Of a stretch of DNA of 64,000 nucleotides, positions 1-22,677 are shown in pieces. Position numbers and translations under genes: made by a program. The number at the start of each line of letters is the position of its first letter. Position 1 is the first letter of the stretch. The notes under the pieces are model-generated. The model did no database searches and had not been told where the DNA came from. It saw only the letters and a program-made list of their open reading frames with translations. This DNA is from Planctomycetota bacterium (GTDB lineage: Bacteria; Planctomycetota; Planctomycetia; Planctomycetales; Planctomycetaceae): contig JAURQH010000010.1 of assembly GCA_030836185.1 (NCBI GenBank), positions 62,001 to 126,000 on the forward strand. The letters run 5' to 3'.

Positions 1-981
1 ATTACGATCAAACCTGACCGAAAACCTGACATTCTGACCGAACTTGATGCCACATTGATGGAACTTTTGGCATTTGGAGTGGGTGCAGGTTTGTCCCGCT
101 TAGAGCAGGAACGCAATGCGTTGGCGGCTCAAACACGCTTTGAAGAGTTCTTCACTCCGGGGCTTTCGAAGCGATTGATGAATGACTCCTCAATCTTGAG
201 AGGTCATGAAAGACCAGTTTCCATTTTGTTTTGTGATGTTCGAAAATTTAGTCAGTTTACTGAGCAGTTTGGGCATCGAATGACTGTCAGTTGGCTCAAC
301 GATCTACTCGGGGTCCTCTCAGAAGTTGTTTTGGATCGAGATGGAGTGCTTGTTGATTATTCCGGTGATCAGGTGATGGCAATGTGGGGAGCACCAGAAC
401 AACAGCCAGATCATGCCGTTCGTGCGTGCGAAGTCGCTTTGTCAATTCTCGAACAAATTCCCAAGATCAATCAACGTTGGAGTTCCTATTTGAATGGAAA
501 GCAAATTCAAGTCGGGTTGGGCATTAGTACCGGCCAGGCATTCGTGGGAAATATTGGTTCCCATCGAAAATTCAAATATGGAGCACTCGGTAATGTTGTG
601 AATCAGGCGAGCCGTATTCAAAACGAAACAAAAAAGTATCATTGTCCGATATTGATTTCGTCGGAAACCCTTGCAGAGCTTCCTGCCGAAATGGTCGAGC
701 ATCAGACGCGACGCATTGGAAAAGTAAAACTCCGCAATCTCAAGGATACCGCCACTCTCCATCAGCTTGTTCCAGTAAACACGGAGGGCTTTCTGCGAAG
801 AAAAACATTGATGGAGGAGTTTGAGGCGAAGCTAAGTCGTGACCACTTCGGTGAAGCGGTGGAAGTTATTCAAACCATTCTCGAAGAGTTTCCCGACGAT
901 GGGCCAGCACGCGCTTATCGAAAACAGCTCTCGGGACAAGATGCTTTCGATGGTGTAACCGATCCGGATAAGACGCCTTAA
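1..981 (+). CDS. Adenylate/guanylate cyclase, class III (5' end outside window)
   Basis: The reading frame is open to the first base of the window, so this is the C-terminal part of a longer protein. A class III nucleotide cyclase catalytic domain begins around the motif SILFCDVRKFSQF, which carries the first metal-binding Asp. It continues through VDYSGDQVMAMWGAP, the second metal Asp region, and GISTGQAFVGNIGS. Such domains make cAMP or cGMP from the nucleoside triphosphate; substrate choice cannot be decided here. The residues before the domain may be the end of a GAF or similar sensor module, as is common for this family in planctomycetes, but that is inference. A short C-terminal helical extension follows. 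It ends 31 bases before a convergent gene. Cyclic-nucleotide-binding domains occur in a redox protein 8 kb downstream. Confidence 0.88.
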   Translation: MTIKPDRKPDILTELDATLMELLAFGVGAGLSRLEQERNALAAQTRFEEFFTPGLSKRLMNDSSILRGHERPVSILFCDVRKFSQFTEQFGHRMTVSWLNDLLGVLSEVVLDRDGVLVDYSGDQVMAMWGAPEQQPDHAVRACEVALSILEQIPKINQRWSSYLNGKQIQVGLGISTGQAFVGNIGSHRKFKYGALGNVVNQASRIQNETKKYHCPILISSETLAELPAEMVEHQTRRIGKVKLRNLKDTATLHQLVPVNTEGFLRRKTLMEEFEAKLSRDHFGEAVEVIQTILEEFPDDGPARAYRKQLSGQDAFDGVTDPDKTP

Positions 982-1012: not shown

Positions 1013-2839
1013 CTAGAATTTCGATTGAAGCTCGAAGCGAACGCCTTGGCCGATGTCGGTTGATTCTCCTTTGGAAACAAACGAATCAATCACAAAGAAC
1101 CAATGTTGATCGAGTGCTTTTTGATAGCGTAAGCCAGTTGCGATCGCGGCGTTGTCGGCACCATTTGTGTCTTGCCTCCCGCCAATCTCAAAGACAACTT
1201 GTTCTTTGAGGTCATTGTAGAACATCTGATAGCCGAGACTCCCCCCCACAACACTATTCGCCTGGTTGCTCAACGGGGCTCCGTATCGTCCCAACCCAGC
1301 GGCTGAAAATAAGAGTCCGGTTTGTCCCAACGGACCTCCCCCCAATGGGCCTCTCGATGCGGAGGTGAATTGATCGATCCCCCAGAACGTGTTTAAAAAG
1401 ATCAGGTCATTGGTGTGGTGTGGTGTCCACGAGAATTGATGAAACAACAGTTCTCCTTGTGAGGCATAAACCGTTTCATCATCCGTCGGAATCGAAGCCA
1501 AAAGATGAAGTGATGAGTTGTAGGTGTTGTGGAATCCCGAAAGACGTTGAATCGCACTCAATCCAATGACCACCATGTCTCCAAGCCCATTTTCTGACCA
1601 GACATAGGCGACATCCGCGTTTACGGTGCTTTGACGAAAATTACTCTCGGTAAAGAAACCGGCAAGTTGAGAATCGTTATCGTGACGATTAGGCCCCATC
1701 ACATTATGGCGATTGATCTCGTTCCAGGCGTACACGAAGGTGCCGCGAAAATTCAGATTGCCGTTTCCATTGAGCGTGTTTCGTGTCACAGTGACAGCAT
1801 CAATACGGTCTTCGTTGAGGAGTAATCCCTGTTGGAAGGAAAGTGGTTGCCGTCCGATGGAAAAACCATAATCGAGTGCAGCCGTGTCAAACGGATCAAG
1901 GTTGGGGAAAATTTCACCAAAGTCACCTTCAAAGAACAGTGTTTGTGGTTCTGCGTTCCACCCGTCCAAAGCATCGCCATTGCGAATGTCGTATCCTGTA
2001 AAGCGGCGTGACGTCGAAGTTTCTTCATCGAGCGGTCTCATCCCAAACAAAATCCGCTCTGTTCCCGAAAGGTTTAATTGGGCAAATAGATCGAGACGAT
2101 TGGCCCATTCACCAACGGCTGGTCCTGTGCCGCCGTCAAAGTAATTTGCTCCCGTCCGATAAGTTCCAAACACCCACAATGCTGGTCTCCAGACAGCGCC
2201 TGTTGGCGTTACGACTCCCTGTTCTAGGAAACCTGCTCCCAAAAACTCTTCATTCAGTTCCAACAACAATGGGGGACGATCAGGAACCGATTGGAGGCCA
2301 ATGGCATGGTGGTCCAATTCGGTGTGCGGTTCGTCGTGTTCAGAGTGCAGTAAGACTTCCAAGAGATGAGAAAGTGGCTCGGCGGGTTTCCCAATCGCTT
2401 CAAGAAATGCTTCCAACAGATGATAACAGGCTGGCTCTTCTTCCTCAGGAACGCATGGATCGTAGGCAACGTGGCCAGCAAAGGGGCTCGGACAACCGGG
2501 CCCTGTGTGGTAGCTGAAAGGAATTAAGTTGGATTCAGGATAATCTGATGTTGATTGATGATTAGACGACTGTGGAAGAGGTGGTAGCTTTTTGTCGCTG
2601 AGTGCTTCTTCAGTCACCGGAGCAGGTGGGATCTCAATCGCTGTGGACGCTGTGGAAAACTGCGCAGGGGGAAATTGCGAGGTTTGAATCCCGGAAATAT
2701 CGACCGCCGGTATGCTTAACTCTTCTGCAGAAATTGTTGTCGTGCTTGAAATCATGTTCCAACTGACGAACCACAAGACCACCGCAGTCCTGCCGACTGC
2801 GGTGAGACGTGTCAAATTGTGTTGATTCGTAGCTCTCAT
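1013..2839 (-). CDS. Outer-membrane beta-barrel protein downstream of a multihaem cytochrome
   Basis: The protein is about 608 residues from the ATG at 2839. That start gives a hydrophobic signal peptide (AVVLWFVSWNM region) and avoids overlap with the upstream gene. Residues 30-190 are Pro/Ser/His-rich linker. The rest alternates polar and aromatic residues as in transmembrane beta-strands, with many Asn/Gly turns, and it ends in a terminal Phe (FELQSKF), the usual signal for outer-membrane barrel assembly. I do not recognise a precise family; it resembles large porins of the carbohydrate or alginate-export type. It starts 22 bases after the stop of the five-haem cytochrome gene on the same strand, so the two are probably one operon. 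Porin-cytochrome pairs can carry electrons across outer membranes, but that role is inference here. Confidence 0.75.
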   Translation of the reverse strand: MRATNQHNLTRLTAVGRTAVVLWFVSWNMISSTTTISAEELSIPAVDISGIQTSQFPPAQFSTASTAIEIPPAPVTEEALSDKKLPPLPQSSNHQSTSDYPESNLIPFSYHTGPGCPSPFAGHVAYDPCVPEEEEPACYHLLEAFLEAIGKPAEPLSHLLEVLLHSEHDEPHTELDHHAIGLQSVPDRPPLLLELNEEFLGAGFLEQGVVTPTGAVWRPALWVFGTYRTGANYFDGGTGPAVGEWANRLDLFAQLNLSGTERILFGMRPLDEETSTSRRFTGYDIRNGDALDGWNAEPQTLFFEGDFGEIFPNLDPFDTAALDYGFSIGRQPLSFQQGLLLNEDRIDAVTVTRNTLNGNGNLNFRGTFVYAWNEINRHNVMGPNRHDNDSQLAGFFTESNFRQSTVNADVAYVWSENGLGDMVVIGLSAIQRLSGFHNTYNSSLHLLASIPTDDETVYASQGELLFHQFSWTPHHTNDLIFLNTFWGIDQFTSASRGPLGGGPLGQTGLLFSAAGLGRYGAPLSNQANSVVGGSLGYQMFYNDLKEQVVFEIGGRQDTNGADNAAIATGLRYQKALDQHWFFVIDSFVSKGESTDIGQGVRFELQSKF

Positions 2840-2861
2840 GGGATAACGCTTGGAACTTCTG

Positions 2862-4796
2862 TTATTTAACTCGTACTTGAGAAATTCGCTCGTGAACAAC
2901 CAAATGGCCGTCAACGATGGCGCGGGCCAGTTGTTTGGCGCTCATGCCGTAATCAAAACCGACATCAGAAATTTCGTGAACCAGATTGACGGGAACCATG
3001 CCGGCAATGAGTTGCACGCGAACTGTGTAAGTTCCTGCACCGGTGATCTGCTTACCTTTGAGTTGATAACGAGCATCGATCCCGCCATCAACTTCAATGT
3101 TTTGTTTGTGTTTTCGAGCTCCGACTGGACGCCCCAAAACGGTGAAGGCTCGTGTCGCGGGGCGAGTGTAAGGCAGGGGATCAATCGAATACGGCACATT
3201 GAGAACTTGCTCTCTTTCTCCTCCACGTATGTTTCTGGTCACAAAACGCGATTGCAGCGAGACCAGATTACGGTCGAGTGGAATTTCACCGTTGTGAACG
3301 TAAAGGGAGTGACTGTCTCGAACGTCACCGTTCGGGTCGAGGTCACCCGATTGAAACACCATACGGCCTGTGGGATCCCACACATGAACTCTGAGGAACA
3401 CCATCCGCTCGGCATCGAAACCGGTCGGGACACCGTGTCCTGGAGTTCCATTACGGAGATCAATCCCAAACTCCAGCTCCTCGCAGTCGGAGCGATGAAA
3501 TTCGATTTGTCCGAGGTGGTAACCGGCTCTGAGAATTTGTAATCGGGCGATTGTTGCTTCGGTGAGTAATTGGTATTGATCGTTCAGTATTTGACGAGCT
3601 TTTAGGCGTTTCTGTTTGTTGTCCCATGGGGACGGGAAGTGCGTACTCTCTGTGACCGTTTTCTCGTATGCTTCCGTTCCCCAGCCTGCTGCATCATCGA
3701 AGCAAAGCCATTCTCGCATGGTGGCAAGCCCTGATTCTGTAATCGCTCCGCTAGTCGCTTCGTCAATCAGATCGACAGTCCCCTCTTCGCGAATCGCTTC
3801 CGGGTGGTGGGGAAACAAGCCTCTGTGAATCACCGGATAATCGGGGCCGATCATCATATGGTTGGTATGTTTTCGGGATGCCGTACTGACGTTTCCAACA
3901 ACAGCCGCTGGCCCAAATGTATAACCTTTGGCTTCTCCCGGGACGGCTCCCATGTGGCAGTCCTGACAGTTGTGCCCATGAATTTTAGCCGACGGTGATT
4001 GTTTGAATTCAGAAAACGCATCTTCGAGCCGAAACCCGTTTGGTGCAAAGACATCGTGGCAGGTACCGCAAAATCCCGAAGTGGTAATTTGAAAGAAACG
4101 ATGCGAGACTTTGTGAATATTTCGTCCGCGAACGTCGGCAGCCTTCTTGGTTTTTAGAACGCCGAACTTGTCAGGATTTGTCAAAACCTGGTTTAACACC
4201 TTGCTGCCGATGGGCCCATAGACGGCTTGCTGAACATCACCGGGAACCAACGCCTGGCGTCCAGCACCTTTTCCCCAAGCTTGATTGATTCGATGGCAAC
4301 TGATGCAGGTAACACCTTCACGCGAAGTGGGATGACGATTCAGATTGCTGGTGTTCAAGGGTTCGTTGAGTGCCATTCCGGTTGGTGTGTGGCAACGGAT
4401 GCAGAAATCTCCCAGTGTTCCTGAATTGAGTTTATTTAACTTGTTTGACATCGCATTGAAGACAGGACTTAACTGAGCATAGGCATGTGGAGAGACCGAC
4501 CACTCCCGATAATGCTGCGGGTGGCAGGTTGCACATTGTTTAGCTGATGGGAAGCAATTGTCTTCAAAACACTCTGCGTGAGCCTGATCGATGGCTTGTT
4601 GAAGAACCGTTTCCCGGTTGTGGTCAATCTTTTGATCAGCGAAGGAATGAATTTTAGAGACCGCAACAGTGCTTTGTTTTTCTTGCGCATTGACATCAGG
4701 AGGGCAACAAGACAGAGCGAATGCCCCCAGCACAAAAATGGCTCCCACCATCTTGTCCGCGTTCAGAACGAATTTTTGGCCTCTGGTCACCGTCAT
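2862..4796 (-). CDS. Secreted multihaem (five CXXCH) cytochrome c
   Basis: The 644-residue protein has an N-terminal hydrophobic signal segment (residues 17-31). Five c-type haem-binding motifs follow: CATCH near residue 88, CIRCH 132, CISCH 164, CGTCH 243 and CQDCH 277. Many spare histidines could be distal ligands, for example HPQHYREW and SPHAYAQ. This half resembles the cytochrome c554/multihaem family. Residues 400-640 contain no haem motif and are rich in beta-type sequence, perhaps a partner-binding or substrate domain. The protein should act in the periplasm or at the outer membrane. It is the first gene of the minus arm of the redox locus, is followed after 22 bases by a large beta-barrel protein, and is divergent from the reductase gene at 5232. 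The electron donor and acceptor are unknown. Confidence 0.85.
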   Translation of the reverse strand: MTVTRGQKFVLNADKMVGAIFVLGAFALSCCPPDVNAQEKQSTVAVSKIHSFADQKIDHNRETVLQQAIDQAHAECFEDNCFPSAKQCATCHPQHYREWSVSPHAYAQLSPVFNAMSNKLNKLNSGTLGDFCIRCHTPTGMALNEPLNTSNLNRHPTSREGVTCISCHRINQAWGKGAGRQALVPGDVQQAVYGPIGSKVLNQVLTNPDKFGVLKTKKAADVRGRNIHKVSHRFFQITTSGFCGTCHDVFAPNGFRLEDAFSEFKQSPSAKIHGHNCQDCHMGAVPGEAKGYTFGPAAVVGNVSTASRKHTNHMMIGPDYPVIHRGLFPHHPEAIREEGTVDLIDEATSGAITESGLATMREWLCFDDAAGWGTEAYEKTVTESTHFPSPWDNKQKRLKARQILNDQYQLLTEATIARLQILRAGYHLGQIEFHRSDCEELEFGIDLRNGTPGHGVPTGFDAERMVFLRVHVWDPTGRMVFQSGDLDPNGDVRDSHSLYVHNGEIPLDRNLVSLQSRFVTRNIRGGEREQVLNVPYSIDPLPYTRPATRAFTVLGRPVGARKHKQNIEVDGGIDARYQLKGKQITGAGTYTVRVQLIAGMVPVNLVHEISDVGFDYGMSAKQLARAIVDGHLVVHERISQVRVK

Positions 4797-5231: not shown

Positions 5232-6515
5232 ATGTTTCCAATGCAAATCCTCGGCTGCATTCTGATTTCGCTGGTCGGATTGCGTTTGGTTCTTTCGTTG
5301 TGGGACTCGATTCGTACGCAGCAACACTCCGCAAATCAACGTCGTAAGTCGCTCGAACTTCTGGATGAGCGAATCGCATCGATTCGTGCATTGCGAAAAC
5401 AAACAGAGACTCAGCAACCACACTGGAATGGTTATCGGAAGTTTCGAGTGGATCGTAAAGTTCTTGAAGCTGATAATATCTGTTCGTTTTATCTGGTTCC
5501 CCATGATGGGAAGCCGTTACCCAGTTATCGCCCCGGACAGTTTTTGACATTTCGATTTCAATTACCTGATCAGAAGATGCAAAAATCAAAGCCGGTCGTT
5601 CGATGCTATTCGCTGTCAGATGCTCCCCGCCCGGATTATTATCGTGTGACAGTGAAGCGAGTTCCGTCTCCACCCGGTGTTGATGCTCCCGAAGGTCGTA
5701 TTTCCAACTATTTTCACGACCATGTGATCGAGGGGGATATTCTGGATGTACAGGCTCCGCGGGGTGATTTTTCTTTGGACCCCGCAGAAGAGAGTCCGGT
5801 TGTTTTGGTCGGGGGTGGGGTCGGAGTGACTCCGGTCTTGAGTATGGCGAACACGATCCTGGAAACCGACATTCAGCGAGATGTCTGGTTTTTTCTAGGA
5901 GTCCGTTGTGGACGAGAACATCCGATGAGGGAGCATCTCCAACAATTGGACGAGCGGTATGATCGTTTTCACCTCATGGTTTGTTATAGCTGTCCCGAAG
6001 AGTGCGATGAAAGTGAGAAAGATTTTCAGCGTGAAGGACATGTGAATCTGGCAGTCATCCGGGAAACGGTCAAAGTCTGCAATTTTGACTTTTATATCTG
6101 CGGGCCTCCTCCCATGATGGAATCATTAGTTCCAGATCTTAAAGACTGGGGAGTTCCTGAAGAGAAGATTCACACTGAAGCGTTTGGGCCTGCGACAGTC
6201 AATCGTGCGAAGAAGCCATCAACTCCTCAAAAAAATCAGACTGACGGTGAGAATCAGCCCGAAATTACGATACAATTTAGCCGATCAGAAACATGTGTCA
6301 CATGGGACCATAATCAGCAAAGTTTACTCGATTTTGCTCTCGATCAAGGGATTGAAATCGACTCCGGTTGTCGTGCAGGAAGTTGCGGATCGTGTGAAGT
6401 CGCCGTGAAACAGGGGGAAGTTGAATATACAGTTGAGCCAAGTGTGGAAGTCGAAAAGGGGTCGTGTCTGGCATGTATTTCCTGCCCGAAAACAAACTTG
6501 GTTATTGAAGCCTGA
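5232..6515 (+). CDS. Flavin/2Fe-2S NAD(P)H oxidoreductase (FNR fused to ferredoxin)
   Basis: The 427-residue protein has one N-terminal membrane helix (residues 5-22). A ferredoxin-reductase FAD domain follows, with the RxYSL-type motif RCYSLSDAP. The NAD(P)-binding domain has GGGVGVTPVLSM and CGPPPMM. A C-terminal plant-type 2Fe-2S domain carries ligands C380, C385, C388 and, by spacing, C418. The order FNR-NAD-2Fe-2S matches NqrF-like or phenol-hydroxylase-type reductases. It should pass electrons from NADH or NADPH through FAD to the cluster on the cytoplasmic face and then to a membrane partner. It is the first gene of the plus-arm redox operon, 36 bases before the first tetrahaem cytochrome, and is the likely electron entry point. 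No good Shine-Dalgarno sequence precedes the start; an ATG nine bases later is an alternative. Confidence 0.87.
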   Translation: MFPMQILGCILISLVGLRLVLSLWDSIRTQQHSANQRRKSLELLDERIASIRALRKQTETQQPHWNGYRKFRVDRKVLEADNICSFYLVPHDGKPLPSYRPGQFLTFRFQLPDQKMQKSKPVVRCYSLSDAPRPDYYRVTVKRVPSPPGVDAPEGRISNYFHDHVIEGDILDVQAPRGDFSLDPAEESPVVLVGGGVGVTPVLSMANTILETDIQRDVWFFLGVRCGREHPMREHLQQLDERYDRFHLMVCYSCPEECDESEKDFQREGHVNLAVIRETVKVCNFDFYICGPPPMMESLVPDLKDWGVPEEKIHTEAFGPATVNRAKKPSTPQKNQTDGENQPEITIQFSRSETCVTWDHNQQSLLDFALDQGIEIDSGCRAGSCGSCEVAVKQGEVEYTVEPSVEVEKGSCLACISCPKTNLVIEA

Positions 6516-6551
6516 GAAATTCATCATTTGAGAATATTGAGGGAGTGGATT

Positions 6552-7709
6552 ATGACATTTTCACAAAACCGTCTCGCAAAGAATAACGTCCTGTTGGTGG
6601 CCGGTTTACTGGCTCTGATCGGGATGGGCGTCTCATCGGCGATTTCCGGAAATATTGAACAGTCAACATCCTCCCGAGTTGTGAAGAATGATTCGGTGGC
6701 AACTTATCACACATCCGCGACGGCTGTTTTCAATGTATCCGAACAAATTGTCGGATCCGCATCCTGCAAAGAGTGTCATAAAGCCGAATATGCAGCCTGG
6801 ACGGCAACCGTCCACTCCAAGAACTTTGCAAGAATTGGCTCGCCTTCTGGGCAGAAGATTTCTGCCGCGTATGGCAATACCGAGGCTTGTCTCAAATGCC
6901 ATTCCACTCCACATACTCCGACCGCAAAATTTGAATCGGAGCAAGTCGGCGTCTCCTGCGAGTCGTGTCACTCGGCAGCCGGTGGGCCAGAAGGCTGGTT
7001 CAAGCTTCATTCTAATTACGGGGGTGAAGGTGTTAAACGAAACGATGAAACAGAAGCACATCGCAAAGAACGGCTTGCCGGTTGCGATACCGCAGGTATG
7101 ATACGTGCCAGCAATGTTTATGCTTTGGCGAAAAACTGCTATTCATGCCATGTGGTCGCTGATGAAAAATTGCTAGCCGCTGGCCACAAACCAGGACATA
7201 GCGACTTTGATCTCATTCCCTGGATGCAGGGTGAGGTTCGACATAACTTCCAAGTCGATCAAACAGTGAATGCCATTTCACCGTCCCTGTTAAAGGCTCG
7301 CGACGGTGTCACAACCGAACAACGTAAGCGTGTTTTATTGGTGACCAGTAGAATGGTTGAACTGGAAACCTTGCTACGAAATCTGGGTTCGATTAGCGAA
7401 GAGAATCTGGGGGAGAGCTACGCGGGCCGTCGTGGTTGGGCAGGTCGAGCGGAAGATATCTTTGAGTATCTTGACGAAGAAATCGGGGAGGCCATCGACA
7501 ATGAGCATGTTAAAGCTGTTGTTGAGGCGGTCAAAGAGATCGAACTTGGTCGCAAATTTGAAGATCAGGATGCCGCAATGAAGGCTGCCGATCAGCTCGC
7601 CAAAATTGTTCAAGAGTTTCTGGACTCAGCAGGCGAAGCAGATCTTGCTGGGCTCGATCCACTAATCGAGGAACTTGATAAACCGGTAGGGAAGCCGTAT
7701 TTGCCTTAA
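6552..7709 (+). CDS. Tetrahaem cytochrome c, c554-like (first paralogue)
   Basis: The start at 6552 is chosen because AGGGAG lies just upstream; an in-frame ATG at 6528 has weaker support. The 385-residue protein has an uncleaved or cleaved N-terminal hydrophobic segment (residues 12-31). Four haem motifs follow: CKECH (C72), CLKCH (C113), CESCH (C136) and CYSCH (C196). The spacing and the SAAGGPEGW motif after the third haem fit the cytochrome c554 family. Residues 250-385 are helical, acidic and haem-free. The protein should sit in the periplasm, probably anchored, and take electrons from the redox operon's membrane components. The next gene encodes a paralogue with the same four-haem plan, so the pair arose by duplication. 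Confidence 0.88.
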   Translation: MTFSQNRLAKNNVLLVAGLLALIGMGVSSAISGNIEQSTSSRVVKNDSVATYHTSATAVFNVSEQIVGSASCKECHKAEYAAWTATVHSKNFARIGSPSGQKISAAYGNTEACLKCHSTPHTPTAKFESEQVGVSCESCHSAAGGPEGWFKLHSNYGGEGVKRNDETEAHRKERLAGCDTAGMIRASNVYALAKNCYSCHVVADEKLLAAGHKPGHSDFDLIPWMQGEVRHNFQVDQTVNAISPSLLKARDGVTTEQRKRVLLVTSRMVELETLLRNLGSISEENLGESYAGRRGWAGRAEDIFEYLDEEIGEAIDNEHVKAVVEAVKEIELGRKFEDQDAAMKAADQLAKIVQEFLDSAGEADLAGLDPLIEELDKPVGKPYLP

Positions 7710-7760
7710 TTGCTGGCGTGTCACCCTGACGAAGGAATCCGAGATTCAGGAATGAAAGTT

Positions 7761-8951
7761 ATGCTCAAAAAGTGGAGGCCTCTTCGAAGCCATACCATCA
7801 ACTGGTTTCTCGGTTGCACGGTTGCTTTCTCCTGTTTGGTTGCATGGCTACCCGGAGAAGGAGGCGATGTTTCCGAGGTGACCACTCTCTCAGTCAACGC
7901 TAAAAAAACGAACATTAATCCAGATCGCAGCAAGTTCATGGGTGCTCGCGCGTGTCTTGATTGTCATCGTTCGGAATATGTGTCCTGGTTGGGAACCGAG
8001 CATTACAAGAATCCGATCAATCGCTTTGAAATCAGCGATGTCAGCGTCGCGAAAAAGTATCTCGATCAAGGAGGTACTCTTGACCGTTGCTACTCGTGTC
8101 ACTCTGCACCAGAAGAGAAAAACTTTGGGCGGCTTGCGGTGGAAAGCGGGACTTCTTGCGAATCGTGCCACGGTGCCGCCGGAGGCGAGTCTGGTTGGTT
8201 GAATCGGCATGCCGTTTATGGCCCCAATGTCACCACGCTGGCACAAGAGACACCAGAACATTATCGAAATCGAATCGATTACTGTGATCAGGCCGGTATG
8301 ATTCGTCCCAGTCATCAATACGAAGTCGCCAAAAATTGTTTTCGATGTCACATGATTGGCGATGCAACATTGGTCAGCGATGATGTCGGTCATCCTGTGA
8401 TTCATAAAAAGTTCAGTTTGATTCCCTACCTGAACAGTGATGTTCAGCACAACTTTCATTTGAATCAAAGATCCAATGCTGATGCTCCCACTCTCGACAC
8501 TCTTCGTCGGGGATTGTCATCATTGGAGCGCAAACGTGTCTACTTGGTGTTGGGGCAACTGGCGAAAATCGAAGTGGCATTACGGTATTTGGTCGATTTT
8601 CCGAATGACGAGGCTCTCGAAGAACGGTATGCAGGTAAATTGATCGATGCGTTTGAGGATGGGGCTGATGAAATTGACTACTATGTTGAGCTTTTACTCG
8701 AACCTGATGACGATGACATTAAACCTCTGGAAGAAGATGATGTCGAGTTGTTGTTGACAGCCTTTGAATTATTCGAAGAGTTTGATGATCTTGACAAACA
8801 AACTCGCGCAGCGGCTGCAGAAACGGCAAACAAGATTGCCGAAATTGCTGAAGGATTCCTGAAAGACTTTGGTGACGGAAAACGCTTGGCAGCATTAGAC
8901 ATTGTTTTTGAAGAACTTGACGATTCTCCCAGTAAACCGCTGCAACCATAA
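7761..8951 (+). CDS. Tetrahaem cytochrome c, c554-like (second paralogue)
   Basis: The ATG at 7761 has AGGA nine bases upstream; the ATG at 7752 is too close to it, so 7761 is preferred. The 396-residue product has a hydrophobic N-terminal segment (residues 13-31). Four CXXCH sites lie at C65, C110, C133 and C193. Its haem region aligns with the preceding gene: both have AGMIR, the CESCH-xAAGG-xxGW block and a QHNFH/RHNFQ motif before the helical tail. The tail is strongly acidic with runs of Asp/Glu around residues 310-350. The protein is periplasmic or membrane-anchored. The acidic tail may dock a basic partner, which is inference. It lies 51 bases after its paralogue and 27 before the ferredoxin-like gene, in one operon. 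Confidence 0.87.
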   Translation: MLKKWRPLRSHTINWFLGCTVAFSCLVAWLPGEGGDVSEVTTLSVNAKKTNINPDRSKFMGARACLDCHRSEYVSWLGTEHYKNPINRFEISDVSVAKKYLDQGGTLDRCYSCHSAPEEKNFGRLAVESGTSCESCHGAAGGESGWLNRHAVYGPNVTTLAQETPEHYRNRIDYCDQAGMIRPSHQYEVAKNCFRCHMIGDATLVSDDVGHPVIHKKFSLIPYLNSDVQHNFHLNQRSNADAPTLDTLRRGLSSLERKRVYLVLGQLAKIEVALRYLVDFPNDEALEERYAGKLIDAFEDGADEIDYYVELLLEPDDDDIKPLEEDDVELLLTAFELFEEFDDLDKQTRAAAAETANKIAEIAEGFLKDFGDGKRLAALDIVFEELDDSPSKPLQP

Positions 8952-8978: not shown

Positions 8979-10772
8979 ATGCGCGGGATGAGCAATGTCC
9001 AAATTAAACGGCCCGAACGCTGGTCAGTTCCCTTTTCGGAATCGATGACCGAGGAGGACGTTGAGTATGTCCTTCAGATGCCGTTGTTTGCGGAAGGGAT
9101 GATTGATCCTGAGCAATTTGGGAAGCGGATTTCATTGGCTGGGATATTGAAAAATGATGCCAGTCTTCTGAAGTGTCATCAAGGTGAAATCATCGTCAGA
9201 GAAGGTGAGTGGGGGAACTCGGCTTTCTTTCTACTCTCGGGCAGTGTCAGCGTCGCCGTACAACGCGGGAATGATTCGTTACCAGCAGAAATTCTGGGGC
9301 GATCCAATATCCGTCAAAAAAGCTTCATCGATATTTTGAAACAGCTCTGGAACGGTCATCGTCAGGTCGAATCTCGGGATCTTGAAAAATACTCAGCAGA
9401 GTCTCCGTCGTCCCGAACGACTAAGGAAGGGACGCGAGTTTATCTACAAGATATTTCGATTGCGTTGGATCTCGAAAAATCGGCAACCATCAACGCGGTC
9501 GATTTTTTTGGTGAGCAATCTGCCTTGGGGCGGATCGAACGGACGGCAACCGTAATCGCGGCGGGAGATTGTGAACTACTCGAAATCCGCTGGCAAGGGA
9601 TTCGAGATATGATGTCCAAAGCGCCCTGGTTGAAATTACAGATCGAATCGCGATTTCGCATGTACGGTTTACAGCGATTTTTGCAAGCATCCCCTTATTT
9701 CGAGCACTTGTTACCAACCGAGGATCGGACACCAGAGGATGTTGAGCGACGTAATGCTCTTTTTCAGAACGTCCTCGATGATGCCGATTTCCGTTCGTAC
9801 GGTTCCTACGATAAGGTCGAGAAGTTTACGAAACTTGTGGAATCGGGGACAGCATCCAATTTGGTGCATGAACCTCTCATCGCCAAAGAAGGAGATTACC
9901 TGGAAGGCGTCTATCTGATTCGCAGTGGTGTCGCGCGGGTTTCTCATCAAGCCGGTCACAAGCATCGTACGGTCAGTTACCTGACTCCGGGGCAGGCATT
10001 TGGCGTGAATGAAATGATTGAAGGGTGGAAAACAAGCCGACACGCCGATTTACGCTATTCGTTACGGGCTGTTGGTTATGTCAATGTGATCTTTATTCCT
10101 GCGCGAAACTTTGAACAAGCGGTCTTGAATGAGTTAATGGCGAGAGAACAATCTCATTCGACGTTCCCAGATCATCTGAGTTCAAAATCGAGTGATGAAA
10201 TCGGACAGATTGATTCTGGTTTGCTCGAATTTCTTGTCGAACGCCGATTCGTCAATGGCACGGCGACCATGGTGATCGATCTTGATCGCTGTACGCGGTG
10301 TGATGACTGCGTAAAAGCTTGTGCGACGACCCACGATAACAATCCACGTTTTTTAAGGCATGGACCCATCTATGACAAGTACATGGTTGCGAATGCCTGT
10401 ATGCACTGTGCAGACCCTGTTTGTATGATTCAATGTCCCACGGGGGCCATTCATCGGAGTATGCAAGGCGGTGAAGTGGTCATTAACGACACAACCTGCA
10501 TTGGATGCAGTGCGTGTGCAAACAATTGCCCTTACGATGCCATCCGTATGGTTCATATTCGTGATGAACAGGGAGATCTCATCTTTCCGACGGCGTCAGA
10601 GTCAGGCACATCGGCGCCCGTTTCGCTCACACCTCTTACCAAAGCAACGAAGTGTGACCTTTGTGCGGAACAGATCACCGGGCCAGCATGCCAACAGGCG
10701 TGTCCTCACGATGCGTTAGTGCGATTAAATTTGGGAACATCGGAAACAGCAGCAGAGTGGTTTAATCGATGA
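8979..10772 (+). CDS. Cyclic-nucleotide-binding domains fused to a four-cluster 4Fe-4S ferredoxin
   Basis: The 597-residue protein has no signal peptide. Two Crp-type cyclic-nucleotide-binding folds are recognisable. The first spans about residues 50-225, with EGEWGNSAFFLLSGSVSV and DFFGEQSALG, and is interrupted by a loop near 110-160. The second spans about 280-375, with KEGDYLEGVYLIRSGVARV and PGQAFGVNEMI. The C-terminal 160 residues are a DmsB/NrfC-like ferredoxin with four cysteine groups: CTRCDDC from C438, CMHC, CIGCSAC and CDLC, each with a following distal Cys-Pro or Cys. It should move electrons on the cytoplasmic side, perhaps gated by a cyclic nucleotide. The next gene, a cytochrome b-like membrane protein, overlaps its stop by four bases (ATGA), so the two are translationally coupled and probably form a complex. 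Confidence 0.86.
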   Translation: MRGMSNVQIKRPERWSVPFSESMTEEDVEYVLQMPLFAEGMIDPEQFGKRISLAGILKNDASLLKCHQGEIIVREGEWGNSAFFLLSGSVSVAVQRGNDSLPAEILGRSNIRQKSFIDILKQLWNGHRQVESRDLEKYSAESPSSRTTKEGTRVYLQDISIALDLEKSATINAVDFFGEQSALGRIERTATVIAAGDCELLEIRWQGIRDMMSKAPWLKLQIESRFRMYGLQRFLQASPYFEHLLPTEDRTPEDVERRNALFQNVLDDADFRSYGSYDKVEKFTKLVESGTASNLVHEPLIAKEGDYLEGVYLIRSGVARVSHQAGHKHRTVSYLTPGQAFGVNEMIEGWKTSRHADLRYSLRAVGYVNVIFIPARNFEQAVLNELMAREQSHSTFPDHLSSKSSDEIGQIDSGLLEFLVERRFVNGTATMVIDLDRCTRCDDCVKACATTHDNNPRFLRHGPIYDKYMVANACMHCADPVCMIQCPTGAIHRSMQGGEVVINDTTCIGCSACANNCPYDAIRMVHIRDEQGDLIFPTASESGTSAPVSLTPLTKATKCDLCAEQITGPACQQACPHDALVRLNLGTSETAAEWFNR

Positions 10773-11596
10773 GAGCTCTCACCCGACGCCGTACAATCAA
10801 TGTCTGTTTGACTCTCTTAGTGGCTTTTGTACTGATCGGTGCCGCTTGGATCGTTAAAAACACGTTGGTCGAAACTCACTTTCTGACAGGCTGGTTTTTT
10901 TTTGTCACGATCATTTTTCTTGCGGCATACAATCTTCGTAAAGCGTTCCCTTTTCTCCCACTCGGAACTTCAGCACAGTGGTTGCAAGTCCATATTTATG
11001 CAGGCTTGTTATCGTTTGTGTTGTTTCTGATTCACATTGATTATGAATTGCCGAACGGTTTTCTGGAATCGTTTTTGGCATCGGTTTATCTGGTGGTTTT
11101 TGGGAGTGGTCTTGTCGGGTTATACATGAGTCGGACATTCCCCAAACGGCTTACAGATCTCGGTGAAGAAGTCATCTTCGAGCAGATACCCGTTGTTCGA
11201 AATAACATTCAAACGGATGTTGAAGACGCTATCCTTGAATGTACGGAGGAGATCCACAATTCTGAGATTCCCATGTTTTATCGCAATGAAATTTACCCGT
11301 TTATCATGCGTAGGCCAGACCGATGGTCGCATTTCGTTTACGGATACAGTCGGTATTGGAGACCTCTGCAGAAAAAATTGTCTGATGCGAAACGTCTGTT
11401 CGATGAGGAAGAACTGAATGCGTTGGCGAAGGTCGAGATTCGATTGTCTCGGAAACACCAACTCGATACCCAAGAGACTCTGCAATTTGCTTTGAAAGTT
11501 TGGTTGTTCATTCACATCCCGGCAACCTATTCTTTACTTACCTTCACTGCGTTACATGTGGTTCTTGTTCAAGTGTGGTCGGGAGGGGCGTTATGA
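10769..11596 (+). CDS. Dihaem cytochrome b-like membrane protein
   Basis: The 275-residue protein has about five hydrophobic segments: residues 11-29, 39-55, 74-91, 102-119 and 243-270. Two helices each contain a pair of histidines 14 residues apart, H75/H89 and H249/H263. That is the spacing used by dihaem b-type cytochromes, where each haem takes one histidine from each helix. The soluble loop (120-240) is charged and may bind the preceding ferredoxin. I cannot place it in a named family; ferric-reductase-like or NrfD/DsrM-like proteins are the nearest ideas. It overlaps its neighbours by four bases on both sides (ATGA junctions), which argues for coupled synthesis and a shared complex. The proposed role is to pass electrons from cytoplasmic clusters to periplasmic haems. 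Confidence 0.72.
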   Translation: MRALTRRRTINVCLTLLVAFVLIGAAWIVKNTLVETHFLTGWFFFVTIIFLAAYNLRKAFPFLPLGTSAQWLQVHIYAGLLSFVLFLIHIDYELPNGFLESFLASVYLVVFGSGLVGLYMSRTFPKRLTDLGEEVIFEQIPVVRNNIQTDVEDAILECTEEIHNSEIPMFYRNEIYPFIMRRPDRWSHFVYGYSRYWRPLQKKLSDAKRLFDEEELNALAKVEIRLSRKHQLDTQETLQFALKVWLFIHIPATYSLLTFTALHVVLVQVWSGGAL

Positions 11597-13692
11597 GCAA
11601 TACAGACTCCCCCTCTGGATTCGACACCAACAGTTATCAACTCCCACAACAGGATTGGGTCTGCGGTCATCTGGCTGATGGTAGCCCTTGTTCAATCGGT
11701 CCCAGTACAAAGGGGAGTTGTCTCGCAGAAAATATCTGCCACCCTCAATTCGACGGGAAGAAGTGGCATTGCACTCGTCCTAATGCTTGGGGAGGGCAAT
11801 GTCACGACGGCCCAATTCCTGATGCGGCTTGTCCCGAGGAAAAAGCGATATGTCCCCATCAACCAGCGGCATGCCAACCCGCTCGCAGCTTGAGAAACCG
11901 CCGGAGAATAGTAACGGGATTGGTTTTCGCGGCTTCTTTGGGGATTTGCCTCCTCATTTTAGGTGGCAGTTCAGGCAGCTCGTCATCGACGCTCTTCCAG
12001 ACAACGAAAATCATTTCTCCGGGGCCACTTTCTTCACCGCATTCAGTGATTCAGGAAGGGTGCAAGGCGTGTCATCCTTCAAGCCATCTGACTCCGGTTT
12101 CGATGGTGAGTGAGGCATGGGACTTTCATCACAAAAAACATCAAAGTGAACTTTGCTTAAATTGCCATCAAGATTTTGGTGAACATGCAATGAACGCGCA
12201 TAGTGCCAACCCGGAGCAGTTAACGACATTGAGAAAACAATCTACGGGAAAAACTCATTTGACGAGTGACCAGATCTGGGTACGAGCGCTGATTGGAGAT
12301 CAAATTTCTAATGCCGAAGAACTGAACTGTGCGACTTGTCATCAGGAGCACCAGGGAGCCAATTTCGATTTAACACACCTGACCAACAAACAGTGTCAAA
12401 GTTGCCACGAGAATACCTTTCATAGCTTTAGTGAGGGTCACCCTGAATTCGAGACAGTACGGGTTCGTATTCGCTTCGATCATAGCAGTCATTTCGAACA
12501 GCACTACAAAAATTACCCCTTCTTGATGCCCGGCGGTATCCCGAAACAAAACTGTAACGAGTGTCATCAACTTTCTTCAGACGGTGCTACGTTTCAACTC
12601 GCAGGATTTGAAGCGATGTGTGCCTCGTGCCATGAGTCACAAATTCTCGACTTCCAGATGCCGACGGCATTACGACTGGATCAGTTTGAGTTTTTGAAGT
12701 CCTCTGAAACATCAGATTCTTCGACCGTGAAGTCTTTGGAGTTGCCGCCATTCATGGAGTTGATGTTGCGTGCCGATGAAAAGATTGCAGTTGCCATTGA
12801 TACGCTTCAGGAATCAGTGGTCTCAGGTGATGAACTACAGTCCAAAAATATTGCTTTGATTGCAGAAGCAACTCGCAGCTTACTGATCGAACTGAAGCAG
12901 CAAGGTGCGGAAGTAGTGGAGCAGAGATTGAACCGATTCACTGAAGGTCCGAAAGTCGCCAAGCTGGTGGAGTCTTTGGTCGAAGCCTTGGATCGGTCTC
13001 AGTTTTTTGAACTGCTCTCTGCAAGTCATTTCGGCGAGAATTTGAAATCTGAAGGTTCCGACGACTCAGTCAAAGACCGTGAATTCACTCTCAGTTCCTG
13101 GACAATGCTGAACGATCAATCCTCTGTGGAGTATCGGCCTCAACAACATGCCGATCCACTTATCAAAGCTTGGCTGGATTTAATGGCGAATCAAGCTAGT
13201 GCCTCTTACGAAGAGGTTGAATCACCCCATCATAATCGTTTTGACGACTTTTTTCGGGCGGCTGTTTCTCCAGAAGCAGCCGGTCGTTGTACCAAGTGCC
13301 ATACCGTTGATCGATTGTTAGATGGTTCCCTCAGAATCAATTGGGGAATCCTGCCCGCAGATCAATTTCAGCGGCAGTTTTCAGAGTTCGTGCATCGTCC
13401 GCATCTCACGTTAATGCAAGATCGTTCTGCCCCTGAAGCTTCACAAGCTGTTGAAGAAGAAGTCTGCCTGAAGTGTCACCAGCCGGAGGAGCCCAAACCG
13501 TTCTTTAATCGTTCAGCGTTTGTCTTGTCCGATGGTATGCCTCATACCGACTTTCATCATGCGAACTCTACGGGGTACTTACCGATTCAAAAACGTGATT
13601 GCGTGCAATGCCATCAACCAAAAATGGCTGGCGACAATTGTCTTCAGTGTCACAATTATCATGTGCATGAAAACTCAGTCTTGCGAAGATGA
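11593..13692 (+). CDS. Membrane-anchored decahaem cytochrome c with cysteine-rich cytoplasmic head
   Basis: The start at 11593 has GGAGG upstream and overlaps the previous stop by four bases. The 699-residue protein has three parts. Residues 20-95 hold nine cysteines in GxPC/GGxC/PDAxC patterns and no CXXCH, so they may bind metal or FeS. A single membrane helix spans about 106-124. A large periplasmic region then carries ten CXXCH motifs, the first at C157: CKACH, CLNCH, CATCH, CQSCH, CNECH, CASCH, CTKCH, CLKCH, CVQCH and CLQCH. Groups of six and four haems are separated by a helical haem-free stretch. The haem part resembles cytochrome c3/c7-type nanowire proteins. It ends the redox operon and overlaps the convergent methyltransferase gene by 18 bases. 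Confidence 0.85.
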   Translation: MSNTDSPSGFDTNSYQLPQQDWVCGHLADGSPCSIGPSTKGSCLAENICHPQFDGKKWHCTRPNAWGGQCHDGPIPDAACPEEKAICPHQPAACQPARSLRNRRRIVTGLVFAASLGICLLILGGSSGSSSSTLFQTTKIISPGPLSSPHSVIQEGCKACHPSSHLTPVSMVSEAWDFHHKKHQSELCLNCHQDFGEHAMNAHSANPEQLTTLRKQSTGKTHLTSDQIWVRALIGDQISNAEELNCATCHQEHQGANFDLTHLTNKQCQSCHENTFHSFSEGHPEFETVRVRIRFDHSSHFEQHYKNYPFLMPGGIPKQNCNECHQLSSDGATFQLAGFEAMCASCHESQILDFQMPTALRLDQFEFLKSSETSDSSTVKSLELPPFMELMLRADEKIAVAIDTLQESVVSGDELQSKNIALIAEATRSLLIELKQQGAEVVEQRLNRFTEGPKVAKLVESLVEALDRSQFFELLSASHFGENLKSEGSDDSVKDREFTLSSWTMLNDQSSVEYRPQQHADPLIKAWLDLMANQASASYEEVESPHHNRFDDFFRAAVSPEAAGRCTKCHTVDRLLDGSLRINWGILPADQFQRQFSEFVHRPHLTLMQDRSAPEASQAVEEEVCLKCHQPEEPKPFFNRSAFVLSDGMPHTDFHHANSTGYLPIQKRDCVQCHQPKMAGDNCLQCHNYHVHENSVLRR

Positions 13693-14959: not shown

Positions 14960-15139
14960 ATGGGTTTGAACAAGAAGCAGAAAAAACAGATCGAAGTGGC
15001 ACGTAAGAAAATCCAGAACTTTCAACAAAAATTGGCGGGTTGCAAGCAGCAGATGGATGACCCGGAAGAAGTTCGCAATTTGGAAAATGCGATCTCCGAA
15101 CAAGAGTCGGCCATCGAGAAAATCAAAGCCGAGTCTTAA
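14960..15139 (+). CDS. Small basic coiled-coil protein, 59 residues
   Basis: The ATG at 14960 is preceded by AGGAGAG at 14947-14953, a clear ribosome-binding site. The protein is almost entirely Lys/Glu/Gln-rich helix with heptad character (KKQKKQIEVARKKIQNFQQKL, then ENAISEQESAIEKIK). It has no signal peptide or cysteine pair. I do not recognise the family and assign no function. Small basic coiled-coil proteins of this kind may bind nucleic acid or other proteins. A membrane-protein gene follows after 42 bases and could share a transcript. Confidence 0.7.
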   Translation: MGLNKKQKKQIEVARKKIQNFQQKLAGCKQQMDDPEEVRNLENAISEQESAIEKIKAES

Positions 15140-15181
15140 TTGCCTCTCGAACAACAAGCCTGATGTAATCAGGAGAAATTC

Positions 15182-15991
15182 ATGTTGCTATGGAGTTGCC
15201 CGGTCTGCGGGCAAGAAACAACGCTCGCTGCCTTGAACTTGATTACCTTATTTGAATGGTATTTGTTGGCGACTTTTTTTTTCAGTCTCGCGATACGTTA
15301 TCAGCTTTATCGATCCTACGTGGCGCTGTTTTGGTCGATGCCAGAAAAATGGCCCGCGATGTATGACTTAGTGAAAAAGCATTCGCGGTCATTGTTGAAC
15401 TGGACGATGACAATTCCCGTCGGAATTATGCTGGCGATCTACCTGATCCATATGATCAGCTACCGGCTTATTTGGGATGATGCTCAAATTGCTCCTCCTG
15501 ACTTATGGGCATCGGCTGAAGTATTTCTGCCGGTCATCGCATTGATGGCGGCGATGTTCTATTTTGATTTCAAAGGATTGTTTCAGGTGACGCCGGTCAA
15601 CTTTACAGATCTCGAAACCAATTTGCGTCATGGTGAGATTGCTTTGAACTCGAATGTCTCCAAATGGGTTCGACGATTGACGTTTAATCGTGTCGACCCA
15701 CATCAAATGGTTGAGACAAGAGTTGCCGACACGATGCAATGGATTCGCTCTGCGTTTTTGGAACAACTTCGTTATCAGTCATTTCATACGATGGTGCGGA
15801 TTTCGTTCGGCTTTCTGCTCTGGACCGCGTGGGTGCGATTGAAGCTCGATCTCTCAGTCGTCACGTATCTGCTGGCGCTGTTGATGATTGTCTGCTTGAT
15901 TACTTTTGCTTGGCGCTGGACACGACAACCAGAGAAAAAGAGCGTACCGGAATCTGAGGACGATATTGAGGTTGTTTCCGGCGAAGAATAA
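15182..15991 (+). CDS. Integral membrane protein of unknown function
   Basis: The start has AGGAGAAATTC immediately upstream. The 269-residue protein opens with a CPVC pair (residues 6-9). It then has about six hydrophobic segments: residues 24-42, 80-97, 112-130 and a C-terminal pair near 205-222 and 225-245 are the clearest. A charged soluble loop (about 140-200) separates the two membrane halves. The tail is acidic (SEDDIEVVSGEE). No catalytic motif is evident and I do not recognise the family. It follows the small coiled-coil gene by 42 bases and precedes a convergent CPBP protease gene by 17 bases. Confidence 0.75.
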   Translation: MLLWSCPVCGQETTLAALNLITLFEWYLLATFFFSLAIRYQLYRSYVALFWSMPEKWPAMYDLVKKHSRSLLNWTMTIPVGIMLAIYLIHMISYRLIWDDAQIAPPDLWASAEVFLPVIALMAAMFYFDFKGLFQVTPVNFTDLETNLRHGEIALNSNVSKWVRRLTFNRVDPHQMVETRVADTMQWIRSAFLEQLRYQSFHTMVRISFGFLLWTAWVRLKLDLSVVTYLLALLMIVCLITFAWRWTRQPEKKSVPESEDDIEVVSGEE

Positions 15992-16008
15992 ACGCCAATC
16001 AACGGGGC

Positions 16009-16788
16009 TCAATTTGCCATCATTGCTGGCAACAGAAGACCAACTAGCAAGTCATATGCGGTATGCGCACCGATGGCAATCCCCAATCCTCGGCAGAAAA
16101 ACAGGCCCGCGAAATACATTCCCGCACACACGCGAAACAGAAAACTGAAGTGCGAGTATTGGTCGGCGGCAGGCCCAATGTAGTGAGCCCCCGAGAATAG
16201 AAGGCTCGATACGATCATTGCGCAGATCAAACTCGCCATCATGGGGATCTTCAAGCTCCGACCTCCCGCATACAATAATGTACACAGAATTCCGCGGAAT
16301 AAAACTTCTTCATAGATACCAGCACCGATGTAACTGATAGCCGTACTCGATGCGTTCTCGGGAAAAATTGCTAGCAATTCGTAGGCCGACCATTGTTGAA
16401 AGAGTAGATCCTGGGTTTGTCCAATGACGACAAGAACCACAGCAAACAACAGGCTTTCCGCGAGCATGCCAGACAGTAATTCACCAGAAATTTTGTGAGG
16501 AAATTTACCGGCAAAATGCCAGACAGCCAACGCGATTAGTATCAGAGTGGGAAGCAAGTGGGTTTGTTGAAAACCGACTGACAGCAGACCTTCGCGAATC
16601 CAGTGATCGGCCCCGTTCCGGGCGGTTAACTCTCCGGCATGAGAGAGCATCAAGACACCCACCTCATAGATCAACAAAAGTGGGAGCAGAAAGATGGCAG
16701 AAGGCAGCGGCTGCCGGGTTAACTCCCAATAATCGGGAGCAACAGAGTCAGATTTCGCGGGAAAGCAAGAAGGATTTTCAGCAACCAT
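16009..16788 (-). CDS. CPBP-family intramembrane metalloprotease
   Basis: The 259-residue protein has several membrane helices. It carries the family signature GIYEEVLFRG, the EExxxR motif of CAAX/bacteriocin-processing (CPBP, Abi) proteases, and a later conserved His motif GAHTAYDLLVG. A further motif, LFSGAHY, contains the histidine that usually completes the metal site. Members cleave substrates inside the membrane; the natural substrate is unknown for most bacterial versions. The gene is convergent with the membrane-protein gene to its left. The 370 bases on its right separate it from the divergent serine acetyltransferase gene. Confidence 0.85.
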   Translation of the reverse strand: MVAENPSCFPAKSDSVAPDYWELTRQPLPSAIFLLPLLLIYEVGVLMLSHAGELTARNGADHWIREGLLSVGFQQTHLLPTLILIALAVWHFAGKFPHKISGELLSGMLAESLLFAVVLVVIGQTQDLLFQQWSAYELLAIFPENASSTAISYIGAGIYEEVLFRGILCTLLYAGGRSLKIPMMASLICAMIVSSLLFSGAHYIGPAADQYSHFSFLFRVCAGMYFAGLFFCRGLGIAIGAHTAYDLLVGLLLPAMMAN

Positions 16789-17158
16789 AATTGTGGAGGG
16801 CGGCGCAACGTGAGCGCAGGAATTTCCGTCATGTCATTACTTCCCTGTTATCGGCGTGTCGAAGTCAAATCGTGAATTAGATCGGGCCTATTTCACATCG
16901 TGAAAGTCGATACCAGAAAACCAGTTACAGAAAATTGGCTGATTAAGGGGGACTTTTCTTCGCTGGCTGTGTCAAGATATAAGGGCAATAGCGGAAAAAA
17001 CGGTCGAACGACTCGTTCGGAACCACACTCACACTGAATCTCGACACGGTTTTCGTCGATCTTGAGAGAGACAGACTGTCCACAAACTCTGTGAAAACCA
17101 GATTTCCTCTGGCTTCTGCAGTGTTCCGGGGAACTTGCGTTTTACAGAGGAAGCGGCC
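16789..17158. other. Intergenic region between CPBP protease and serine acetyltransferase genes
   Basis: This 370-base region separates two divergent genes and should hold both promoters. I saw no convincing promoter hexamers, RNA gene or coding sequence. A short palindrome, GACAGACTGTC, occurs near 17066 but has no clear meaning. Confidence 0.5.
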
Positions 17159-18094
17159 ATGGCCACTGATTTACGACTGAAAGAACAACTTCCCGATTTG
17201 ACCGACCGGATCGTGGCCACCTATCACGAGATCGGAAACATCAACCAACTTGGGCACTGTCCACTTCCGAACCGAGAAGCCATTATCCAGATTGCAGAAG
17301 ACCTGAAAGAGATCATCTTTCCGGGTTACCGAAAACGCCAAAACCTGCATCTCGGCAATGTGACATTCTATGTCGGCGACATGATCGACAGCCTGCACGA
17401 CCGGCTCACGCAGCAAGTCGCTCGCGCTTTGAGGCATACCTATCAGATTGAACATCATCTCAATTGCGAAGACAATCGAGAGACCGATTTTGAAGCCGTC
17501 GGCCAGGAAAAGACCATTCGATTTCTGGAAAAGATCCCCCACCTGCGAGAGCTCATTTCGTCCGATGTCGATGCCGCTTATGTGGGTGATCCTGCGGCGA
17601 GTGGCCTCGATGAAATCATCTTCTGCTACCCAGGCCTAGAGGCGATCACAATGCATCGTTTGGCTCACGAGTTATATCTACTCGATGTGCCTCTCATTCC
17701 ACGGATGATTTCCGAATGGTCGCATTCACTCACGGGGATCGATATTCATCCGGGAGCCCGCATCGGGCCTTCCTTTTTTATTGATCACGGAACCGGTGTT
17801 GTTGTCGGCGAAACCTGCGAAATCGCCGCTAATGTGAAAGTCTATCAAGGCGTCACATTGGGAGCGCTCAGTTTTCCGAAGGATGATTCCGGCAACATCA
17901 TTCGTGGACAGAAACGACACCCCACCATCGAAGAGAATGTGGTCATCTATGCGAATGCCACGATTCTCGGAGGAAACACCACGATCGGTAAAAACTCGGT
18001 CGTCGGTGCGAGTGTCTCTTTGATGAAAAGTGTTCCCGCCAACACGATGGTCACAATTGAAAAACCGCAACTGCGTTTCCGGGATGCCTCCTGA
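17159..18094 (+). CDS. cysE: Serine O-acetyltransferase (EpsC type)
   Basis: The start at 17159 follows AGAGGAA with six bases between. The 311-residue enzyme transfers acetyl from acetyl-CoA to L-serine, making O-acetylserine for cysteine synthesis. Residues 1-185 are a helical N-terminal region longer than in E. coli CysE, as in the EpsC subgroup. The C-terminal part is a left-handed beta-helix with hexapeptide repeats. It shows the catalytic His region [24 protein letters not shown] and the following [32 protein letters not shown] and [11 protein letters not shown] segments. It stands alone, with no adjacent cysK. It is convergent with the oxidoreductase gene that ends eight bases away. 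Confidence 0.92.
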
Positions 18095-18101
18095 ATCGCA
18101 T

Positions 18102-19100: not shown

Positions 19101-19166
19101 GGTGGATTGTGCTTTGTGGGTTGGTGTTTTGTGCTTTGAATTTTGTGCTTGGTCTCAGTTTGAGCC

Positions 19167-19182
19167 GCCAGCGCGAGCTGGC
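19167..19182. repeat. GNRA-loop hairpin in a repeat-like spacer
   Basis: GCCAGC and GCTGGC form a perfect six-base stem around a GCGA tetraloop. Three copies of a TTTTGTGCTT-like word lie just to the left (19109-19151). The whole spacer looks like short dispersed repeat material rather than a promoter. Confidence 0.4.
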
Positions 19183-19194
19183 AGGGGACGTTGA

Positions 19195-21342: not shown

Positions 21343-21605
21343 GCTGCAACGATATCCGGCTCATGTCAGGTCTCACGATGTTGTCAGAATTCCACCATGT
21401 TCGCAAGGAGGAGTCCTGCTTGCTCTCATTGTTCCACTTCTCTGCACTTAAATATCTCCTTGTCCCTCAAGGCTTCCGCAGTCCGCATAATCCGAACGTC
21501 TCGTCAACTTTCTGTAACCGTTGTCGTTCCCGGAAAATGAGACTCAACACTCATGCGAGTCGATTGGCTCCCCCGCAATTTCATTCCACAGGCGATAATA
21601 GAAGT

Positions 21606-22556: not shown

Positions 22557-22677
22557 TTCATTCAATCTACCTGTGTGACTCAGCTGAAGCAGATAGAGAT
22601 TCTCTGGCGAGCCTAAGTGGACCAGACTAGAATTGCAGAGGGGAGATTCTCATTAACCGATGGAAACGGAGATTGAA

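Follow-up and report, generated by a model that had tools for sequence, protein, structure and literature searches.

A conserved gene pair for a pentahaem cytochrome and a predicted 18-strand outer-membrane channel in Planctomycetota

We describe a pair of adjoining genes of a Planctomycetaceae-type bacterium that encode a secreted five-haem c-type cytochrome, here called CYT, and an outer-membrane beta-barrel, here called BAR. The pair lies in a 64,000-nt stretch of DNA, referred to below as the window, which corresponds to positions 62,001 to 126,000 of contig JAURQH010000010.1 in assembly GCA_030836185.1; all positions given are those of the window. The host genome comprises 5.16 Mb in 107 contigs, and its close relatives are metagenome-assembled genomes named Planctomycetaceae bacterium and Gimesia.

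The gene pair and its products

The two genes of the pair are the following.

2862..4796, minus strand: CYT, secreted pentahaem c-type cytochrome (open reading frame of 644 aa; Cytochrome_C554; profile match to 5ze8; invariant ligand candidates)
1013..2839, minus strand: BAR, outer-membrane beta-barrel (open reading frame of 608 aa; structural model; Foldseek and VIA-align matches; core length)

The stop codon of CYT and the ATG of BAR are separated by 22 bases. An earlier reading made from the sequence alone had described a secreted five-haem cytochrome gene followed after this distance by a barrel gene on the same strand, and the open reading frames, the five CXXCH motifs and the signal peptide bear this out. 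It had also suggested a search for conserved adjacency, and adjacency is indeed conserved. Profile searches covering 294 Planctomycetota genomes located BAR at 49 places in 46 genomes, and a CYT homologue lies directly 5' on the same strand in 49 of 49. A comparison of 150 genomes from the same taxonomic order likewise placed BAR matches of more than 45% identity beside CYT matches. Because adjacency is this strict, the pairing is not a product of chance, and the view that CYT and BAR form one functional pairing is strongly supported.

The genomes carrying the pair belong to several families and classes. One locus (L119) holds two complete CYT-BAR pairs in tandem, and another (L121) has two CYT genes followed by one BAR. 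A divergent version, type B, occurs in other Planctomycetia at three loci, with CYT at L126:8769-10880, L134:9495-11549 and L133:8892-10862. Type-B CYT has a sixth CXXCH motif in an N-terminal domain, which Pfam shows to be PSCyt1-like in L126 and L134. A pattern scan of genome contigs, insensitive to more distant relatives, detected close relatives of CYT in Planctomycetota only.

CYT has a signal peptide cleaved between VNA and QEK, five CXXCH motifs, a haem domain at about residues 83-330, and a C-terminal beta domain with an invariant GHxxPTG motif (H454). It matches the Cytochrome_C554 domain at 6e-8, and its profile matches the pentahaem cytochrome c552 of Thermochromatium tepidum (5ze8) at 4.1e-12, with all five CXXCH motifs aligned in order. 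The C-terminal beta domain also matches 5ze8 around the H-x-PTG motif, although CYT is about 200 residues longer than c552. The NCBIfam model of the Geobacter cytochrome ExtKL (NF040886) gives CYT 17.4 bits against a curated cut-off of 250, and 16 of 16 CYT members match this model weakly, below the cut-off (best 3e-8). Cytochrome c552, ExtKL and GSU2801 have been grouped as one pentahaem family (PMC11976967). On sequence grounds, we assign CYT to the pentahaem family that includes Thermochromatium c552 and Geobacter ExtKL.

The AlphaFold model of CYT was too poor for ligand assignment, so the question was taken up through conservation. Apart from the histidines of haem attachment, H104, H228, H313 and H454 occur in all 32 CYT homologues, and H73 is kept in 29 of 32, the exceptions being the three type-B proteins, which have no equivalent histidine. 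This conservation is consistent with four or five haems being bis-His ligated. Since only four non-CXXCH histidines are invariant and H73 is kept in most but not all homologues, one open, catalytic haem is possible. Between signal peptide and haem domain, the CYT homologues of four loci (L116, L119, L121 and L122) have acidic repeats in tandem (DDLL, DDML).

BAR is composed of a signal peptide, a variable Pro-rich head, an 18-strand barrel at residues 220-607 (window ~1019-2182) and a C-terminal Phe. Its AlphaFold model, built from 15 sequences, is of moderate confidence (mean pLDDT 59, pTM 0.57), and the 18 strands were counted from the strand list of the model over the barrel residues. Foldseek and VIA-align matched residues 214-608 to 18-strand outer-membrane channels, namely OprD/Occ, Campylobacter MOMP and AlgE. 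The alignment with the OprD/Occ family gives Z ~23-26 and 3.0-3.5 Å over ~325 residues (OpdL: Z 25.6, 3.0 Å over 325 residues), and that with AlgE gives Z 20-22. By fold class, the model identifies BAR as an 18-strand channel of the OprD/AlgE type. Despite the shared modelled fold and strand number, BAR differs from OprD/Occ and AlgE in its low sequence identity (~9%), in having no Pfam match, and in its strict pairing with a cytochrome. BAR belongs to no Pfam family at E<=1 and no NCBIfam family, and neither an OprD nor an alginate-export Pfam match was found in 15 BAR members. MtrB-type sheaths are not among the fold-search matches listed for BAR, an absence that excludes nothing.

The C-terminal Phe, present in 28 of 29 homologues, together with the 18-strand model upholds the barrel nature of BAR that had been proposed. 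Two further details of that reading need correction: the barrel had been called larger than usual, and the Pro-rich head had been noted as unexplained. The core, from residue 181 onward, measures 403-443 residues in 29 of 29 homologues, and the part before the conserved block varies from 38 to 246 residues. The barrel is therefore of ordinary size and the head is an add-on, a lineage-specific and probably disordered extension. A functionally essential head was considered and dropped, as the head shrinks to ~38 residues, signal peptide included, in one locus (L131).

Neighbouring genes and co-occurrence

The genes around the pair encode further candidate electron carriers and a cyclase.

1..981, plus strand: F7, class III adenylate/guanylate cyclase, 5' end outside the window (Guanylate_cyc 9.4e-23; convergent neighbour)
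5232..6515, plus strand: F6, membrane-anchored reductase with reduced nicotinamide adenine dinucleotide (NADH), flavin adenine dinucleotide (FAD) and 2Fe-2S sites (NAD_binding_1 3.7e-21, Fer2 7.2e-12, FAD_binding_6; N-terminal transmembrane segment 6-24)
6528..7709, plus strand: F2, tetrahaem c554-like cytochrome (Cytochrome_C554 1e-10; four CXXCH)
7710..8951, plus strand: F2 paralogue, second tetrahaem c554-like cytochrome (Cytochrome_C554 6.3e-10; four CXXCH)
8979..10772, plus strand: F4, cytoplasmic protein with three cyclic-nucleotide-binding stretches and DmsB/HybA-like 4Fe-4S sites (cNMP_binding 1.3e-25, Fer4_7 1.7e-12)
10769..11596, plus strand: F3, four-transmembrane b-type-cytochrome-like membrane protein (four transmembrane segments; weak DUF4405 0.005 and Ni_hydr_CYTB 0.013, below cut-offs)
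11593..13692, plus strand: F5, decahaem cytochrome anchored in the membrane, its N-terminal Cys-rich domain probably cytoplasmic (ten CXXCH; Paired_CXXCH_1 1.3e-11; single transmembrane segment)

The genes from F6 to F5 lie upstream of CYT, and F6 is transcribed divergently from it. Neighbourhoods were compared for 31 sequences, a few of them from the same or near-identical genomes, and F2 stands beside the pair in 17, F3 in 15, F4 in 14, F5 in 14 and F6 in 9. Two loci from other classes (L121 and L122) carry CYT-BAR-F6-F2-F4-F3-F5 colinear on one strand. Matches to F4 at E<1e-80 occur in 25 of the 294 genomes, and the pair is present in all 25 (hypergeometric 6e-24, uncorrected for relatedness); in three genomes (G007, G267 and G407) F4 is far from the pair, yet co-occurs with it. 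The co-occurrence of F4 and the recurrence of the neighbours thus support a functional link of the pair to an electron chain running from cytosol to periplasm, and the predicted topologies of the neighbours fit such a chain.

The N-terminal Cys-rich domain of F5 (~100 residues) is probably cytoplasmic, and its fusion to the decahaem part could allow transmembrane electron passage within one protein. In another locus (L120), two open reading frames of 678 aa each, encoding 17-haem and 15-haem cytochromes, flank homologues of F3 and F4 beside the pair. The F7 cyclase is near the pair in 7 loci of the 31 sequences and could supply the cyclic nucleotide that F4 would sense. The presence of F4 and a class III cyclase in one neighbourhood suggests direct cyclic-nucleotide control of the electron chain.

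Comparison with known systems and alternative explanations

Could CYT sit within BAR as a wire within a sheath? The bore was estimated by standard barrel geometry and not from a solved structure. The free radius would be ~11.5 Å for 18 strands versus ~19 Å for 26 strands, which gives BAR a free bore ~23 Å wide and ~15,000-25,000 Å3 over a height of 35-60 Å. The volume of the CYT haem domain is ~37,000 Å3 and that of mature CYT ~84,000 Å3. As an 18-strand bore is too small for CYT, a conduit of the MtrAB type is disfavoured, and the modelled geometry argues against CYT lying inside BAR as MtrA does in MtrB.

These estimates bear on the best-surviving alternative, a true porin-cytochrome conduit in which CYT would plug or dock into BAR from the periplasmic side and electrons would be carried through the outer membrane to reach minerals, humics or an electrode. 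The strict adjacency speaks for it, as do the multihaem-rich neighbourhood, to which L120 contributes its 17- and 15-haem genes, and the finding that Geobacter extHIJKL, encoding a porin and a periplasmic pentahaem cytochrome, alone supports partial Fe(III)/Mn(IV) oxide reduction (PMC6148476). Against it stand the narrow 18-strand barrel, a CYT with a signal peptide but no lipobox, and a genome without any match to the MtrB/PioB family (PF11854). A surface lipoprotein cytochrome was also not identified in the cluster, where the lipobox check covered CYT. We regard such a conduit as unlikely. The sequence-only reading had likened the pair to MtrAB and Omb-Oma: the functional pairing that this implied is strongly supported, whereas the cytochrome-in-barrel wire is not, the modelled bore falling below the volume of the haem domain. 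By the 18-strand model, which is of moderate confidence, and by geometry, the barrel is too narrow for haems, an outcome that the sequence-only reading had itself named as counting against a conduit.

Like MtrAB, PioAB and OmbB-OmaB, the pair joins an outer-membrane barrel gene to a periplasmic multihaem cytochrome gene. Their sheaths are larger, however, and ~20-28 strands would be needed for a barrel wide enough to hold the cytochrome; MtrA-type cytochromes are slim wires of 8-10 haems, unlike CYT with five haems, 644 aa and a large beta domain; and the host genome has no MtrB or PioB homology. Extracellular electron transfer has also been proposed as the role of a porin-multihaem cluster of Verrucomicrobia (He et al. 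2017, PMC5615132). It resembles the pair in combining a porin and a periplasmic multihaem cytochrome within the PVC (Planctomycetes-Verrucomicrobia-Chlamydiae) superphylum, but its porins have a predicted 20 or more strands, its cytochromes have eight haems, and homologues have been reported only in Verrucomicrobia (PMC5615132).

The nearest described analogue of CYT-BAR is ExtI-ExtKL of Geobacter. ExtI is a 45-kDa porin-like protein whose loss impairs selenite/tellurite reduction (PMC5877670), and ExtI-ExtKL is counted among putative conduits, yet linked to selenite/tellurite reduction (PMC5877670, PMC6148476). As in extHIJKL(MNOPQS) of Geobacter sulfurreducens, a porin-like barrel of similar size (ExtI by its published description) adjoins a periplasmic pentahaem cytochrome of the same broad family, with genes for an Fe-S protein, a b-type cytochrome and additional multihaem cytochromes nearby (PMC5877670, PMC6148476). 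There are also differences. ExtKL is a pentahaem selenoprotein, whereas CYT has no internal TGA and scores far below the ExtKL cut-off; the barrel follows the cytochrome here and precedes it in ext; the NADH reductase and the cyclic-nucleotide-binding 4Fe-4S protein stand in place of the ext Rieske protein; and the neighbours scanned within the window included no rhodanese lipoprotein, those of other loci having been covered in part.

A second alternative, which we hold to be improbable, is acquisition of iron or another metal: BAR would admit ferric chelates, and CYT would reduce or oxidise the metal for uptake by a cytoplasmic-membrane permease. Close pentahaem relatives of CYT (140 bits) occur on plasmids of Shinella (L136) and Nitratiruptor (L137) in loci with imelysin, DUF4405, multihaem and FTR1 genes, the Nitratiruptor locus also holding an OprD-family porin and ferritin, and these loci are possibly a haem-dependent variant of iron uptake. 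The weak DUF4405 match of F3 points the same way. No FTR1, imelysin or other iron gene was identified in the part of the neighbourhoods that the comparison covered, however, and the decahaem cytochrome and NADH reductase nearby suggest an electron flux above the needs of assimilation. The plasmid search returned nothing for BAR. The OprD-family porin carried by the Nitratiruptor plasmid gave no match to the BAR profile, and a shared ancestry for it and BAR is therefore not supported.

Least probable is that CYT is a periplasmic nitrogen or sulfur enzyme, or polymerises like the archaeal nanowire cytochrome AvECN, to which others have related c552 (PMC11976967), with BAR merely a general porin of the operon: membership of CYT in the c554/c552 family and a possible open haem, given its four invariant histidines and less constant H73, are compatible with this, but a general porin would not be expected to stay beside one cytochrome throughout, and nothing in the analysis shows polymerisation.

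Proposed role and significance

We propose, with a probability of about 0.5, that CYT and BAR work together as a unit where an NADH-fed multihaem chain delivers its electrons to the acceptor, with BAR serving as a channel and not as a sheath. We infer the direction of electron flow, the order of carriers, the substrate and the contact between CYT and BAR as follows. NADH would be oxidised by the membrane-anchored FAD/2Fe-2S reductase F6, from which electrons would pass to the 4Fe-4S protein F4, to the b-type-like F3 and to the decahaem F5, and then by way of the tetrahaem F2 proteins to periplasmic CYT. BAR would admit a soluble or chelated acceptor, such as a metal chelate or a metal(loid) or other oxyanion, which CYT would reduce in the periplasm, and BAR may also dock CYT at the outer membrane. 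The substrate may plausibly be a metal or an oxyanion, in view of the ExtI-ExtKL analogy and the plasmid iron-uptake loci.

Several points weigh against this proposal. About half of the pair-bearing genomes have no strong F4 match and the type-B loci have the pair without multihaem neighbours, so the chain is not obligatory for the pair. The co-occurrence statistics are uncorrected for relatedness; the model of CYT is poor (pLDDT 47.7) and contains no haems; the acceptor is an inferred one; and the plasmid relatives of CYT in FTR1/imelysin loci may point to assimilation as opposed to respiration.

Neither BAR nor CYT is in itself of a new kind. What looks new is that an 18-strand channel of the OprD type is so strictly paired with a long pentahaem cytochrome, and that the pair is linked to a cyclic-nucleotide-binding Fe-S protein; neither this planctomycete pair nor its cluster was found in the open-licence literature, in which other porin-cytochrome claims were found. 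More tentatively, the pair may belong to a phylum-wide planctomycete respiratory or metal-reducing pathway, in which the narrow porin and the pentahaem cytochrome would be the outer part of an NADH-driven chain. F4, with its cyclic-nucleotide-binding domains, would be the cytoplasmic 4Fe-4S subunit by which electrons enter, and through it electron export would be switched directly by cyclic adenosine or guanosine monophosphate from the neighbouring cyclase.

Planctomycetota abound in oceans, soils and wastewater, and the majority are grown as oxygen-breathing heterotrophs. If a conserved multihaem chain ends in a dedicated outer-membrane channel, many of them could pass electrons to an acceptor that has not been tried. 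Several cultured Planctomycetaceae probably carry the genes of the pair, so the prediction should be testable. If it is true, partnerships of porin and cytochrome are not limited to wires within sheaths, and a second design, common to this pair and Geobacter ExtI-ExtKL, may consist of a periplasmic reductase and a channel no wider than usual.

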